Positions 23,769 through 61,273 of a DNA stretch of 64,000 bases are shown one piece after another; within the stretch, counting starts at the first letter, position 1; every line of letters begins with the position of its first letter. Made by a program: the position numbers and the translations under genes. Source of the stretch: Flagellatimonas centrodinii (lineage in GTDB: Bacteria; Pseudomonadota; Gammaproteobacteria; Nevskiales; Nevskiaceae); assembly GCF_016918765.2 (NCBI RefSeq), contig NZ_CP092104.1, positions 1,302,001 through 1,366,000 on the forward strand. Direction: 5' to 3'. The notes under the pieces are model-generated. The model was not told where the DNA came from. It worked only from the letters and a program-made list of their open reading frames with translations, and made no database searches.

Positions 23769-24755
23769 TCATCCGCGCGCGGCTTTTCGCGCGTTCTTCA
23801 CCTCGTACATGGCGGCGTCCGCACGGGCCATAAGGCTGGCGACGGTGTCGTCGGCGTCGGCGCGCACCACCCCGGCACTGGCGCCGCCAAAGGTGATGGT
23901 TTCACCCTCCCAATGCAGCTCGCGGCTGACCAGACGCTGCAGGCGCACGGCAAGCTCGGCAGGGTCGCGTCCGTTGGCGATGACGACGAATTCGTCGCCG
24001 CCATAGCGGCCCACCACATCACCGGTGCGCATGCCCTGCGACAGTTCGCGCGCCACCTGACACAGCAGGGCGTCGCCGGCATCGTGACCATGGACGTCGT
24101 TCACGGTCTTGAAGCCGTTGAGGTCGAGGAAGGCCAGCAACAGGTCGTTGCCGTCACGCTGGCGGCGGGCCAGCGTGCGCCCGAGCTCTACCAGCAGCGC
24201 GCGGCGGTTGGCGATGCCGGTGAGCGCATCCACCAGTGCATGGGCGCTGAGTTCGGCGTTCGAGCTGCGCAGGCGGTCTACCAATTGTTCGCGCTCAATC
24301 TGCTGGGCGATGAGCTGGGCGAACAGGCCGAATATCCGGAGGGTTTGGGGCGGAATTTCATGGCGTGCGCCGCTGGCGGCACAGAGGGTGCCGAACAACG
24401 CGCCGTCCGGCGCCCGCACCGGCTGGCTCAGATAGGTCTTGATCCCCAGCGCCCGCGCCGCCTCGGAGTCACCCCAGCGGGTCGCGACATCGTTGACGAA
24501 GGGGATGTCCTCTTCCAGCGAGCGGCGACACAAGGTGTCTTCCCACGGCACGCTCAAGCCTTCGGGGATGGTCATGTCCCCGGTATTGCGGGCATAGAGA
24601 ATGTGCTGCAGCGTGCGTGTCGGCTCGATCGAGGTGAGGTAGGTCGACTCCATGCCGGTCACCGTCTCCAGCAGCTCCAACAGCGGCCGGGTGAGGGTTT
24701 CGAGATCTTCGGCGCCAGAAACCGATTGCGCCAGTTGGTTCAGCAGAGCATCCAT
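23769..24755 (-). CDS. GAF-GGDEF diguanylate cyclase
   Basis: 328 residues. An N-terminal GAF sensor domain (about 15-155, with FVNDVATRWGDSEAARALGI and GTLCAASG) is followed by a linker helix and a GGDEF domain (about 165-325). The active-site loop RYGGDEFVV is intact, so c-di-GMP synthesis is expected. A feedback I-site RxxD cannot be assigned with certainty. The protein lacks membrane segments, so it should be a cytosolic sensor. It ends six bases from the convergent desaturase stop. A partner H-NOX protein in the window lies 33 kb away, and no direct link is suggested. Confidence 0.92.
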   Translation of the reverse strand: MDALLNQLAQSVSGAEDLETLTRPLLELLETVTGMESTYLTSIEPTRTLQHILYARNTGDMTIPEGLSVPWEDTLCRRSLEEDIPFVNDVATRWGDSEAARALGIKTYLSQPVRAPDGALFGTLCAASGARHEIPPQTLRIFGLFAQLIAQQIEREQLVDRLRSSNAELSAHALVDALTGIANRRALLVELGRTLARRQRDGNDLLLAFLDLNGFKTVNDVHGHDAGDALLCQVARELSQGMRTGDVVGRYGGDEFVVIANGRDPAELAVRLQRLVSRELHWEGETITFGGASAGVVRADADDTVASLMARADAAMYEVKNARKAARG

Positions 24756-56919: not shown

Positions 56920-57027
56920 GCTGGACCTCCATCGTTGAGGGCCGCGGAGTATACGGAAAGCCCCCGGCGCGACACAGGATATCCGTGCATGACGGGCGGT
57001 TGCCGGCGCACGCCGTAAAATGGCGGC

Positions 57028-57435
57028 ATGAGCCTACAAGACATCGCTGACACCTTCGACATGCTCGGGGACTGGGAGGAGCGGTATCGCTACCTGCTCG
57101 ATCTCGGCAAGCAGCTGGAACCGTTCCCCGAGCCCGAAAAGACCGACGACAGCATCGTGCGCGGGTGCATGAGCCAGGTGTGGATGGATCATCGGGTCGA
57201 GAATGGCCGGCTGCACTTTCGCGGCGATTCCGATGCGCACATCGTCCGTGGGCTGATCGCGTTGTTGTTCGCGCTGGTGCAGGACCGTCGCCCGCAAGAG
57301 ATTCTCGACACCGACATCCGCAAGGCATTTGCCGATCTCGGCCTGGAAAACCACATCTCGATGAACCGACGCAATGGCTTCTACGCCATGAGCGAGCGCA
57401 TCCGGGCGGCGGCTCAGGCGGCTGCGGCAGGCTGA
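57028..57435 (+). CDS. sufE: Cysteine desulfurase acceptor SufE
   Basis: 135 residues. [19 protein letters not shown], then [10 protein letters not shown] with the sulfur-accepting Cys47, and [16 protein letters not shown] near the end are SufE/CsdE features. It takes persulfide from a SufS-type desulfurase, which is not adjacent. Its last 22 bases overlap the convergent H-NOX gene. Divergent from rph. Confidence 0.93.
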
Positions 57436-57959
57436 ATGTCGATGATCATCTGATGGTGTTGATCGGCGTCGAGCCGCTCGGTGATCTGCACGCCGTCGCC
57501 GTAGTGGGCGGCCAGACCGTGAATGATGCCGCGGGCAGTGGCCGACAAGTTCCGCGGTGACCGATAGTTGAGCTGCAGGCGCTGTGGGCCGGTCTGCAGG
57601 ATCTCCAGCCGCGGCGGTTCGGCGCGTGGATCGCGTTGCCGGACAGCGCCATGGATCAGCGTTTCGGTATGCAGCAACAGATCCAGGGTGCGCCACTGCG
57701 GCTGGATCAGATCGGTGTGCAGCTGCAGCAGCTGAGGCGCGAGGAAGACCCCGAAGGCCTCCTGGATGTCCTCGGCCGGTTGGTCCAGCAGTGCTGCCGC
57801 CGCATTCACCAGCTGATGCATCTCGGCATCCTCGTAGACCGCGTCCGGACGATAGTGCTGGCCGGGCAGCCCGGCCCGGCCCAGCAGCACGGTCCATGTC
57901 GGGCGGCCATGGCGAGCGACAACAAAGCGTTCAAGCTGGCAGAACAGGAGGCCGTGCAT
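57414..57959 (-). CDS. Stand-alone H-NOX (haem NO-binding) protein
   Basis: 181 residues from ATG 57959; the frame extends far upstream without homology. MHGLLFCQLERFVVARHGRP and EDIQEAFGVFLAPQLL match the H-NOX helical part. The proximal haem ligand is His103 (LIH103), Pro116 matches the haem-distorting proline, and Y132-x-S134-x-R136 is the propionate-binding YxSxR. The place of the distal Tyr of oxygen-binding H-NOX is Thr141, so selective NO binding is expected. No kinase, cyclase or chemotaxis partner lies beside it. It overlaps sufE tail to tail. The low-scoring part is only the partner question. Confidence 0.85.
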   Translation of the reverse strand: MHGLLFCQLERFVVARHGRPTWTVLLGRAGLPGQHYRPDAVYEDAEMHQLVNAAAALLDQPAEDIQEAFGVFLAPQLLQLHTDLIQPQWRTLDLLLHTETLIHGAVRQRDPRAEPPRLEILQTGPQRLQLNYRSPRNLSATARGIIHGLAAHYGDGVQITERLDADQHHQMIIDIQPAAAA

Positions 57960-58045
57960 GGAGATGCGGAGCTGTGAGCATCCGCTACGGTGCCGGTCTG
58001 CCCGGCCGGGTGCAACCGTCTCCGTCGGCTGGATGCCGACGCCCG

Positions 58046-59314
58046 TCAGCTGCTGGGGGTTTCCTCGCGGAAGATCTTCCATTCGCCCGCGGCATCCTGG
58101 CGCCAGAACTGCTGCTTGATGCTTTCCGACTGGAAGTTGTTGGAGCGGTAGCGCATGCGGAATCGCGCCATCACGGTCGGCGTGTCGGTGCCGGGGTAGT
58201 GGAAGATGTCCGGCGCTTCCATTTCGATGTCGATGAAGGTCTTGCTGGCATTGACCCGACGCTTGTGGTCGGCAAATGCATCCCGGTCCAGGCCAGGGGC
58301 GGTGAAGTCCGGGTGATAGAAGGCGAGGTAGCCTTCGGTGTCGACGGCCGACCAGCGCTCGCGCCAGCGTCCCAGGCGCGCCAGCCAGGCGTCGCGCTCC
58401 GCTGCCTGCTCGCTGACAGAGCGCCACGACAGCTCGTCGCTGAACACCACCGGGGTTTCCCCCAGCTGGACGCGCGGTCGCAGCGCCCGCAGGTCGTCGT
58501 TGGCCATGGTCACGCAGCCCTCCGATGACCGTGGGGCGCGGGTGTAGGTGTCACGCGGCACACCGTGCAGCCAGATGCCGTGGCCGGTGCGTCCATGAAA
58601 GCGGTCCCAGGGGTTGGGATAACTCACCGGCAGTGCGCCGGCGCCGTAGAGCTCGGGCAGCACGCGGTCATCGATCCAGTCAGTGATGCGATAGATCCCC
58701 ACCGGCGTCCGCAGGTCGCCCTCGGATTCCTTGCGGGTGCCGTTGCGGCCGATGGCGGCGTAGTGGTGGTACCGCAGCTCGAGGCTGTCCCCGGACTGTT
58801 CCAGCAGGTAGAGCCGGGCGCGCGTGAGGTCGACCGTGACCAGGTGACGATGTGCGGGGTTGAGCGCGATCACAGCGTTGGGCACGGTATCCGCGCCGGG
58901 CGCGTTGGCCTCCGCCGACAGCCGCAACTGGACCTCTTCCGCCAGCGCCTGCAGCGTGCTGTCGTCGCCGTCACGCAGGGGCACCGTGATGTCGCGCCCG
59001 GCGCGTGCCGCCAACAGGTCGCCGTACAGCAGCTGGGCAATGCGGAACGTGGGTTCACGCACGGTCAAGGCCTGCAGCTGTGCCAACGCATCCTGCTGCT
59101 GGCCGGCCCGTAAGGCCTGCACCACGCCGGTCAGTGCCTGCTCGGGCGTCGGGGTGACCGCCGGCACCTCGGCGCCGGCCGTGCCGATACCGAGGATCAT
59201 CGTCAGCGCGAAGCGGGCCCGACGGGCCAGTCGACCCCGGGTTTCAGCGCGGCAGCGGTGGCGGGCAGCGCCCTGTTGCCGGATGTGGGCAACCGGGCCG
59301 AAAGGCCAGCGCAT
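58046..59314 (-). CDS. L,D-transpeptidase (YkuD) with C-terminal NTF2-like domain
   Basis: 422 residues. A basic N-terminal region and hydrophobic stretch (RFALTMILGIGTAGA) form a signal sequence; the start could also be Met39 at 59200. The YkuD domain holds the catalytic motif H250-G to S264-E-G-C267. The last 110 residues form an NTF2/Cds6-like domain (WRERWSAVDTEGYLAFYHPD; YRSNNFQSESIKQQFW). It would cross-link or anchor at meso-DAP in the periplasm. It lies five bases behind a TPR protein with a homologous C-terminal domain. Confidence 0.88.
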   Translation of the reverse strand: MRWPFGPVAHIRQQGAARHRCRAETRGRLARRARFALTMILGIGTAGAEVPAVTPTPEQALTGVVQALRAGQQQDALAQLQALTVREPTFRIAQLLYGDLLAARAGRDITVPLRDGDDSTLQALAEEVQLRLSAEANAPGADTVPNAVIALNPAHRHLVTVDLTRARLYLLEQSGDSLELRYHHYAAIGRNGTRKESEGDLRTPVGIYRITDWIDDRVLPELYGAGALPVSYPNPWDRFHGRTGHGIWLHGVPRDTYTRAPRSSEGCVTMANDDLRALRPRVQLGETPVVFSDELSWRSVSEQAAERDAWLARLGRWRERWSAVDTEGYLAFYHPDFTAPGLDRDAFADHKRRVNASKTFIDIEMEAPDIFHYPGTDTPTVMARFRMRYRSNNFQSESIKQQFWRQDAAGEWKIFREETPSS

Positions 59315-59319
59315 TCGGA

Positions 59320-60294
59320 TCAGCGACTGAACTCGCGCACGATCTTCCAGCCATCGCCTTCACGGATCAGGTCCAGCACCTTGGTGACCGTGTCGGAGAA
59401 GTTGTCGGAACGGTAGCCCTGGGTGAAGGTGGCACGGGCGCCACTGTCGGTCGCCTCAACGCGCAGGTTGTCGATCTCGACGCCGATGTCCTCCGGCCGC
59501 GAGATCCGATCCCGGCGCTGGTCTTCCCAGGCTGCGCGGGTGAGACCGCCTTCGGGGGTGAAGCGGTTGCGGGAGTAGGCGGCGAAATAGGCATCGAGGT
59601 CCTGTCCGGCCCAGGCCGTGGCCCAGGCCGAGACGGCGGCTTCGACCGCACCGGCATCGATCTCGGCCGGTGCCGGTGTCGCCGTTGTGGCGGGGGCCGT
59701 CGTCGCGGCGACCGGCGCTGTCGCGGCCGCTGCCGACGTCGCTGCCGGGCCGGGGCGGCTCGGGGTGGGGGCCGGGCGCGCACTGGCGATGGCGCCACCG
59801 TCGAGCTGGCCGATCAGCGACAGCTTGTTGCGGATGGTCTGGTTGTTCTGGTCCAGCTGCAGCGCCCGGTTGTAGGCAGCCCCGGCAAGCGCGGCGTAGA
59901 TGTCGCCGAGGTTCTCATGGGCCGTGGCATAGCTGGGATGGGTGGCCAGTGCCGCCTCCAGCGCATCGCGGGCCTGTTCGTAGTCGCCCTGCTGGGCATA
60001 GAGCACGGCCAGGTTGTTGTAGGGCTCCGGCAGTTGCGGGTAGTCGCGGGTGAGGTCGGCGAAGGCGCTGATGGCGTCGTCGACGCGGCCAAGGCGCACC
60101 AGCACCAGGCCGCGGCTGAACCGCGCTTCGGCATCCTGCGGATTGGCGTCCAGCTGGTCCTCAAGAACCGCCAGGGCGCCAGCGAAGTCACCGCGGTCCA
60201 TCAGGGCCTGGGGCGTTTCGGCGGCAAAACTCGTCAGCGGCAACAGGGCCAGGCAGGCGATGCCGGCAATGCGGCGAATGGGATGGGTAGGCAC
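59320..60294 (-). CDS. TPR protein with C-terminal NTF2/Cds6-like domain
   Basis: 324 residues. Signal peptide (IAGIACLALLPLTSFAA). About four TPR units (residues 28-165, ALAVLEDQLDANPQDAEARF; PEPYNNLAVLYAQQGDYEQA). Then a Pro/Ala/Thr-rich linker (about 170-215) and a C-terminal domain (SAWATAWAGQDLDAYFAAYS; FTQGYRSDNFSDT) homologous to that of the L,D-transpeptidase downstream. Probably a periplasmic partner. Function otherwise unknown. Confidence 0.8.
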   Translation of the reverse strand: MPTHPIRRIAGIACLALLPLTSFAAETPQALMDRGDFAGALAVLEDQLDANPQDAEARFSRGLVLVRLGRVDDAISAFADLTRDYPQLPEPYNNLAVLYAQQGDYEQARDALEAALATHPSYATAHENLGDIYAALAGAAYNRALQLDQNNQTIRNKLSLIGQLDGGAIASARPAPTPSRPGPAATSAAAATAPVAATTAPATTATPAPAEIDAGAVEAAVSAWATAWAGQDLDAYFAAYSRNRFTPEGGLTRAAWEDQRRDRISRPEDIGVEIDNLRVEATDSGARATFTQGYRSDNFSDTVTKVLDLIREGDGWKIVREFSR

Positions 60295-60358
60295 GCGCGA
60301 ACCTCGGTCAGGCAGGCTGAATGAATTTGAACTATATCAACAACCCCCGCCGGGGCGG

Positions 60359-61273
60359 TCAGCGGTAGGGGTCCGGCATGCCCGGCGGGCGCGCCTTGAA
60401 CCGCTTGTGGACCCAGAAGTACTCCGGCACCGAGCGTCGCGCTGCCGCTTCGATCACGGCGTTGATGCGGCCAGCGTCGGTGGCGTCGTCGCCGCTGGGG
60501 AAGTCCGCCAGCGCCGGCAGGATCTCGACCACATAGCGGCCCCGTTCAAGGCGGGTAAAGAAGGGCACCACCCGGGCCCGCCCCATCTGCGCCAGACGCG
60601 CAGTGGCGGTGATGGTGTGGACCGGTTGGCCGAACATCGGCAGGAACAGGCCGGTCTGGCTGCCCAGGGTCTGGTCAGGCGCGTACCACACGCGGCGGCC
60701 TTGCCGCAGGGCACGGACCAGCGCCTTCAGATCCTGTTTCGGCAGCGGCGGCAGGCCGGCGCGCTGTTCCCGCCAGCGATACATGTAGTGGTCGATCAGC
60801 GGGTTGTTGACCCGCCGATACATGGCATGAAACCGCCGTTGCGTGGCGAGCACGCGGGCGCCCAGTTCGAGCGTGGTGAAGTGCCCCGTCAGCATCAGCG
60901 CCCCGTGACCGTCCGCCTGCGCCGCATCAAGGTGCTCGACACCTTCCAGCCGGGCCAGGCGGAGAATCCGTTGATCACTGGCAAACCAGGCGAACGCGGT
61001 CTCGAAGATGCCGGCACCGACCGCGGCGAAATGGCGGTTGACCAGCCGGGCGCGGGCGTGGGCATCGAGTTCGGGGAGGCACTTCTCGAGGTTGACCCGC
61101 ACCACCGTGCGGCGCTCCCGCATGACATGTCCCAGGGTCCAGCCCAAGCCACGGCCGAAGGTCCGCAACCACGGAAGTGGCAACAGCACCACCAGTTGCA
61201 GCAGGCCGAGGCCGATCCAGGTCGGCCAGAAGCGGGGCGCGAAATAGGCACGACGGAAGGGCGACGTTGTCAT
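60359..61273 (-). CDS. lpxL: Lipid A lauroyl-type acyltransferase (LpxL/HtrB family)
   Basis: 304 residues from ATG 61273; the longer frame upstream lacks homology. One N-terminal membrane anchor (WIGLGLLQLVVLLPLPWL). LTGHFTTLELGARVL has the H-x4-E/D catalytic motif. VWYAPDQTLGSQTGLFLPMFG and RVVPFFTRLERGRYVVEI are LpxL/LpxM blocks, ending YFWVHKRFKARPPG. It adds secondary acyl chains to Kdo2-lipid IVA. Divergent from waaA, the preceding step. Confidence 0.92.
   Translation of the reverse strand: MTTSPFRRAYFAPRFWPTWIGLGLLQLVVLLPLPWLRTFGRGLGWTLGHVMRERRTVVRVNLEKCLPELDAHARARLVNRHFAAVGAGIFETAFAWFASDQRILRLARLEGVEHLDAAQADGHGALMLTGHFTTLELGARVLATQRRFHAMYRRVNNPLIDHYMYRWREQRAGLPPLPKQDLKALVRALRQGRRVWYAPDQTLGSQTGLFLPMFGQPVHTITATARLAQMGRARVVPFFTRLERGRYVVEILPALADFPSGDDATDAGRINAVIEAAARRSVPEYFWVHKRFKARPPGMPDPYR

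Follow-up and report, generated by a model that had tools for sequence, protein, structure and literature searches.

The window, a 64,000-nucleotide stretch of the Flagellatimonas centrodinii genome, carries on its minus strand a gene (57414..57959; ATG at 57959, stop at 57416-57414) for a solitary H-NOX (haem NO-binding) protein of 181 amino acids, hereafter P0001. Convergent with it on the plus strand lies a gene for a SufE-type sulfur acceptor (57028..57435; Pfam SufE, 1.5e-45), whose product does not reach the curated cut-offs that NCBIfam sets for SufE and CsdE. By their coordinates the two genes overlap tail to tail by 22 bases (57414..57435), the sufE stop codon ending at 57435, and the overlap comprises the last six H-NOX residues (QPAAAA) and the stop codon, antisense to the sufE tail. 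Upstream of the H-NOX gene on the same strand, after a gap of 86 bp, is the gene for an L,D-transpeptidase (58046..59314, minus strand; Pfam YkuD, 9.2e-19), with the gene for a TPR protein beyond it (59320..60294, minus strand). The transpeptidase and the TPR protein both end in a Pfam Cds6_C (NTF2-like) domain. Between 57000 and 60600 we found no sigma-70-like promoter and two terminator-like sites, both within sufE, a count close to the 1.0 expected by chance. The sufE and transpeptidase neighbours are the ones that the earlier note had named, and its description of the H-NOX gene as an orphan also stands: a Pfam scan of the neighbours revealed no adjoining kinase, GGDEF/EAL or chemoreceptor gene, and the sole GGDEF match in the window (gene 23769-24755) lies 33 kb away.

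The analysis confirms that 57414-57959 codes for a genuine H-NOX family member, exactly where the frame had been claimed, with profile and whole-length fold match in agreement. The Pfam HNOB profile (PF07700, positions 1-162 of 163) matches residues 2-160 with an E-value of 8.7e-29 and a score of 101 bits against a curated cut-off of 25.5, and because of these values the match is not due to chance; NCBIfam profiles gave no match to the protein. Among proteins of known structure, phmmer matched the H-NOX proteins of Shewanella (6.9e-17) and Nostoc (6.6e-14). An AlphaFold model built from a seven-sequence input (pLDDT 89.6, pTM 0.85) matched S. oneidensis H-NOX (4u99/4u9b) in Foldseek with an E-value of 3.3e-14 and a TM of 0.88, and VIA matches to H-NOX structures reached a Z of 24.1; the matches from both programs span the whole predicted model. 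Specifically, P0001 shares its full-length fold with S. oneidensis H-NOX (4u99, 4u9b), Nostoc Alr2278 (2o09) and Kordia algicida H-NOX (6bdd, 6bde), at TM 0.87-0.89 and Z 22.8-24.1, while its sequence is 18-28% identical to theirs. The genome encodes no other HNOB protein, and we predict that P0001 works in the cytosol as an NO sensor with ferrous haem. Published work already describes H-NOX domains that stand alone and H-NOX proteins of Bacteroidetes (PMC9510103), and the Kordia algicida structure, found here as a Foldseek match, has already been solved. P0001 joins a known H-NOX family, and its interest is the missing partner, not the overlap.

His103, Pro116, Tyr132, Ser134 and Arg136 are all present in P0001 and, like Thr141, stand where the earlier note had placed them. 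These five residues are invariant in alignments of eight and of seven near relatives, both of which include P0001. Across 53 extracted H-NOX rows, Pro and Tyr occur in all 53, Ser and Arg in 50 each, and the proximal His in 43; two of the ten rows that lack this His come from same-family genomes. Position 141 is Thr in P0001 and Tyr in none of the 53 rows, and we take it to be the probable equivalent of Tyr140 in the Thermoanaerobacter protein, given the numbering of that protein and a shift of one residue where the match begins. The predicted helix 139-152 (SATARGIIHGLAAH) contains no Tyr, the four Tyr residues of the protein being at 36, 42, 132 and 153. H-NOX proteins with a distal Tyr bind O2, a type described for obligate anaerobes (PMC8738867), and with a Tyr-free helix O2 stabilisation of this type is therefore unexpected. 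Judged by its sequence, P0001 is probably NO-selective, without O2 binding, which agrees with what the earlier note had predicted. Zinc-based redox sensing by a Cys cluster has been proposed for other H-NOX groups (PMC8738867); P0001 has a single Cys, Cys7, so the C-terminal Cys cluster that forms the zinc/Cys site of those groups is absent from it.

By identity, the best match found for P0001 is L098, an H-NOX-Ser/Thr kinase fusion from a Planctomycetia MAG (44% over residues 1-161), and Pontibacter and Hymenobacter H-NOX proteins, two of them on plasmids, are 30-40% identical by BLAST. In a phylogenetic tree, P0001 groups with seven Hymenobacteraceae proteins (96/93) near the planctomycete fusion, and the kinase-linked H-NOX proteins of its own family and order lie apart from it, within a clade that has 15 rows (100/99). 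Because the P0001 end branch is long (0.96) and its letter make-up is flagged as unlike the rest of the alignment, this placing deserves less trust than its support values imply. The tree excludes 13 loci that gave no usable row by tblastn extraction (L024, L028, L038, L050, L055, L057, L059, L060, L061, L069, L078, L082 and L083).

An order-wide search (85 genomes, E <= 1e-10) returned eight other H-NOX proteins, 27-34% identical to P0001, and the adjacent genes scanned for five of them code for a kinase in four cases and for a sigma-54 response regulator in the fifth. For family and order together, the neighbour scan took in 10 of the 16 H-NOX loci other than our own; eight of the ten adjacent genes code for HisKA/HATPase kinases, one for a sigma-54-domain response regulator, and one for a PAS/HATPase protein beside an HNOB protein without the His. 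The H-NOX proteins at the eight kinase-linked loci (L024-L027, L029-L032) have the domain and haem residues of P0001, but with a HisKA/HATPase kinase gene beside them; seven of these loci fall in the 15-row clade, L024 having given no row.

The Hymenobacteraceae proteins (L065, L066, L099-L103) resemble P0001 in starting with MHG, in consisting of a single domain and in lacking the C-terminal Cys cluster. As at our locus, annotation and scans of flanking genes showed neither a kinase nor a GGDEF gene nearby, except at L102, where a divergently transcribed PAS histidine kinase gene adjoins the H-NOX gene. This solitary call comes from annotation for L065 and L066 and from Pfam scans of one or two flanking genes for L099-L102, whereas for L103 no flanking gene was Pfam-scanned. 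Unlike P0001, these proteins belong to a different phylum, and their gene neighbours vary by species except at the P. mucosus and P. litorisediminis loci, which look alike; a literature search found no papers on the Pontibacter relatives. That these relatives have no evident operon partner suggests that such a partner is not obligatory. The earlier statement that bacterial H-NOX genes lie next to a kinase, cyclase or chemoreceptor gene thus holds as a tendency but not as a rule, given the solitary-looking genes in Pontibacter and Hymenobacter. L098 differs from P0001 both in its fused protein kinase domain and in its C-terminal Cys residues, and L068 and L070-L072 carry a QCM...C motif that P0001 lacks. 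The L098 fusion occupies one 535-aa frame (L098:1892-3499), and our literature search found no paper on a planctomycete 'heme NO binding'-kinase fusion.

We also considered a phage or viral origin for the H-NOX gene and rejected it: tblastn with the H-NOX in phages gave no match, and scanning IMG/VR for the pattern of alignment A2 found no relative. A scan of the contig collection with the single protein was likewise empty; because alignment A2 retrieved six relatives from the same collection, a set unlikely to be complete, this empty scan reflects a limit of the method.

Only one of the three genomes of the genus has the H-NOX gene, and the other two (G001 and G002) are without it. The sufE and L,D-transpeptidase genes of G002 meet stop codon to stop codon, and in G001 the two genes are separated by 758 bp that contain inverted repeats and no H-NOX. 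In the window the corresponding interval is 610 bp and contains most of the H-NOX gene; its longest match to either congener locus is no more than 14 bases. The most economical interpretation is that the gene was acquired laterally, probably into the space where two convergent genes end; alternatively, H-NOX loss in two congeners is possible, the comparison comprising three genomes. The codon composition of the gene carries no clear foreign signature, its GC3 being 0.786 and that of nine neighbours 0.80-0.86; this points to long residence or to a donor similar in composition. At the sufE/transpeptidase junction of G001 (L022:6649-7312) the long inverted repeats (119 nt, 80% complementary) bound a stretch that is possibly a MITE-like element.

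Homologues of the L,D-transpeptidase (E <= 1e-40) occur in 55 of 58 same-family genomes, our own included. At 30 loci, from 30 of the 55 matching genomes, we searched the stretch past the transpeptidase gene, about 1.4-1.5 kb long (316 bases at L120): sufE is adjacent in three of the 30, all of this genus, and a separate TPR gene in 29. The TPR count was rechecked because the TPR protein and the transpeptidase share a domain; a strict filter gives 28 of 30, and L133, where a near-complete TPR match overlaps the transpeptidase match by 41 bases, brings the number to 29. The H-NOX tail borrows antisense sequence of sufE. Since the sufE adjacency was seen in this genus alone among the 30 loci and the SufE C-termini are similar across the three congeners, including the two without H-NOX, the overlap looks accidental: the H-NOX frame seems to run into the tail of sufE through an accident of its landing site. 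Together with the presence of H-NOX in one of three congeners, these observations give no support to the functional link with SufE that the earlier note had thought conceivable, nor to the antisense control that it had suggested, for which the scan of 57000-60600 likewise showed no promoter-like site. A sulfur link was rejected on synteny; a literature search found no papers on an H-NOX/SufE link.

Elsewhere in the genome is a gene for a 773-aa protein with NorB cytochrome c-like and COX1 domains, followed directly by a gene for NnrS. The domain build suggests that the former is a quinol-type NO reductase; NCBIfam named neither protein, and both names derive from Pfam. The NorB-type reductase domain is found in one of the three congeners, the genome that has H-NOX, NnrS having been looked for in that genome only. 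This co-occurrence, a single contrast involving one genome of three, fits a lineage that gained NO physiology. The region concerned (L142:4935-12052) contains the NO reductase and NnrS genes and weakly SirB2-like and DUF6933 genes, and is followed by what appear by eye to be a group II intron reverse transcriptase gene and an IS3-type transposase gene; this NO island may therefore be a mobile or recent addition.

The idea of a further NO sensor, one of the FIST type, was rejected, as the genome gave no match for a FIST-domain (NosP-type) protein. The same genome has 15 GGDEF matches and 14 matches to a same-family H-NOX-adjacent kinase, and thus partners in trans are available. The best of the kinase matches is a PAS-PAS histidine kinase (38% over query residues 44-292), and an unlinked short kinase of the H-NOX type was accordingly rejected. 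These searches singled out no partner.

We favour, as rather better than an even bet, a reading in which P0001 is a laterally acquired NO sensor whose target in trans is a kinase or c-di-GMP enzyme encoded at an unlinked locus, with the sufE overlap playing no part. Kinases or DGC/PDE enzymes are the route by which most of the H-NOX proteins studied so far act (PMC8738867). From the sequence and the fold, the haem would be held by His103 together with Tyr132, Ser134 and Arg136. By analogy with studied H-NOX proteins, NO would bind the haem iron and weaken or break the His103 bond, and the two H-NOX subdomains would then shift about conserved glycines. In this shifted state the protein may make a partner whose gene lies elsewhere more or less active; a histidine kinase or a c-di-GMP enzyme is the likeliest candidate, and the output could be adjusted surface growth or NO tolerance. 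If this trans reading is true, H-NOX partners, usually sought in the gene neighbourhood, would be missed by that approach for a whole clade, and partner finding must be biochemical. The genome offers a tidy test case, with one H-NOX, no FIST protein, and two congeners that lack both H-NOX and the NorB-type reductase.

Several other readings have to be weighed. P0001 and its Bacteroidota relatives might make up a small, truly solitary H-NOX clade, partly plasmid-borne, that signals without a dedicated operon partner, via a shared hub protein in trans or via an output that differs from the known kinase and c-di-GMP routes; we regard this as unlikely. Somewhat less plausible is that P0001 buffers or scavenges NO alongside the NO reductase, with no signalling partner. 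The lack of an adjoining partner gene here, the lack of an evident one at most Hymenobacteraceae loci, and the presence of NO reductase and NnrS are all consistent with such a role, but a stoichiometric haem protein would remove NO poorly next to an NO reductase, and in adjacent branches of the tree the relatives carry fused output domains (Ser/Thr kinase, PilZ).

It is also doubtful, and a little more so, that the H-NOX gene is a transferred gene under no selection that is drifting towards loss. Its presence in one of three congeners, the failure to find a partner, the lack of a promoter match in 57000-60600 and the end branch of 0.96 would suit such drift; against this, the frame is intact, the haem-site residues are kept and the GC3 is near that of the neighbours. 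We consider it very unlikely that the protein is haem-free or senses another ligand or a redox state. H-NOX proteins without the proximal His are common, with group 5 mostly His-less (PMC8738867), and 10 of our 53 rows lack it, but P0001 has His103 and the Tyr-Ser-Arg triad, and its one Cys leaves it without a Cys cluster for zinc-based redox sensing.

Three genomes of the same family contain divergent HNOB proteins without the proximal His (L036:7234-7788, L037 and L017; by alignment for the first two and by eye for L017), and a PAS/HATPase gene adjoins in the one case scanned. Least probable of all, and barely credible, is that P0001 works with SufE such that NO, which damages Fe-S clusters, adjusts sulfur delivery for Fe-S repair by contact or antisense transcription: the 22-base physical overlap and a single distant relative beside a rhodanese-domain gene (L071) speak for it, but sufE adjoins the transpeptidase gene in this genus only, with H-NOX at one of those three loci, no sufE turned up near the closest relatives in annotation or in scans that covered part of the flanking ORFs, and the SufE C-termini are similar with and without an H-NOX neighbour.

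Elsewhere among the relatives, L084:684-1946 and L085:1429-2751 code for H-NOX proteins of 420 and 440 aa with a fused C-terminal PilZ domain. The other loci in their tree clade have open frames mostly of 400-520 aa, known by length alone, and 8 of the 14 rows in this clade are without the proximal His.
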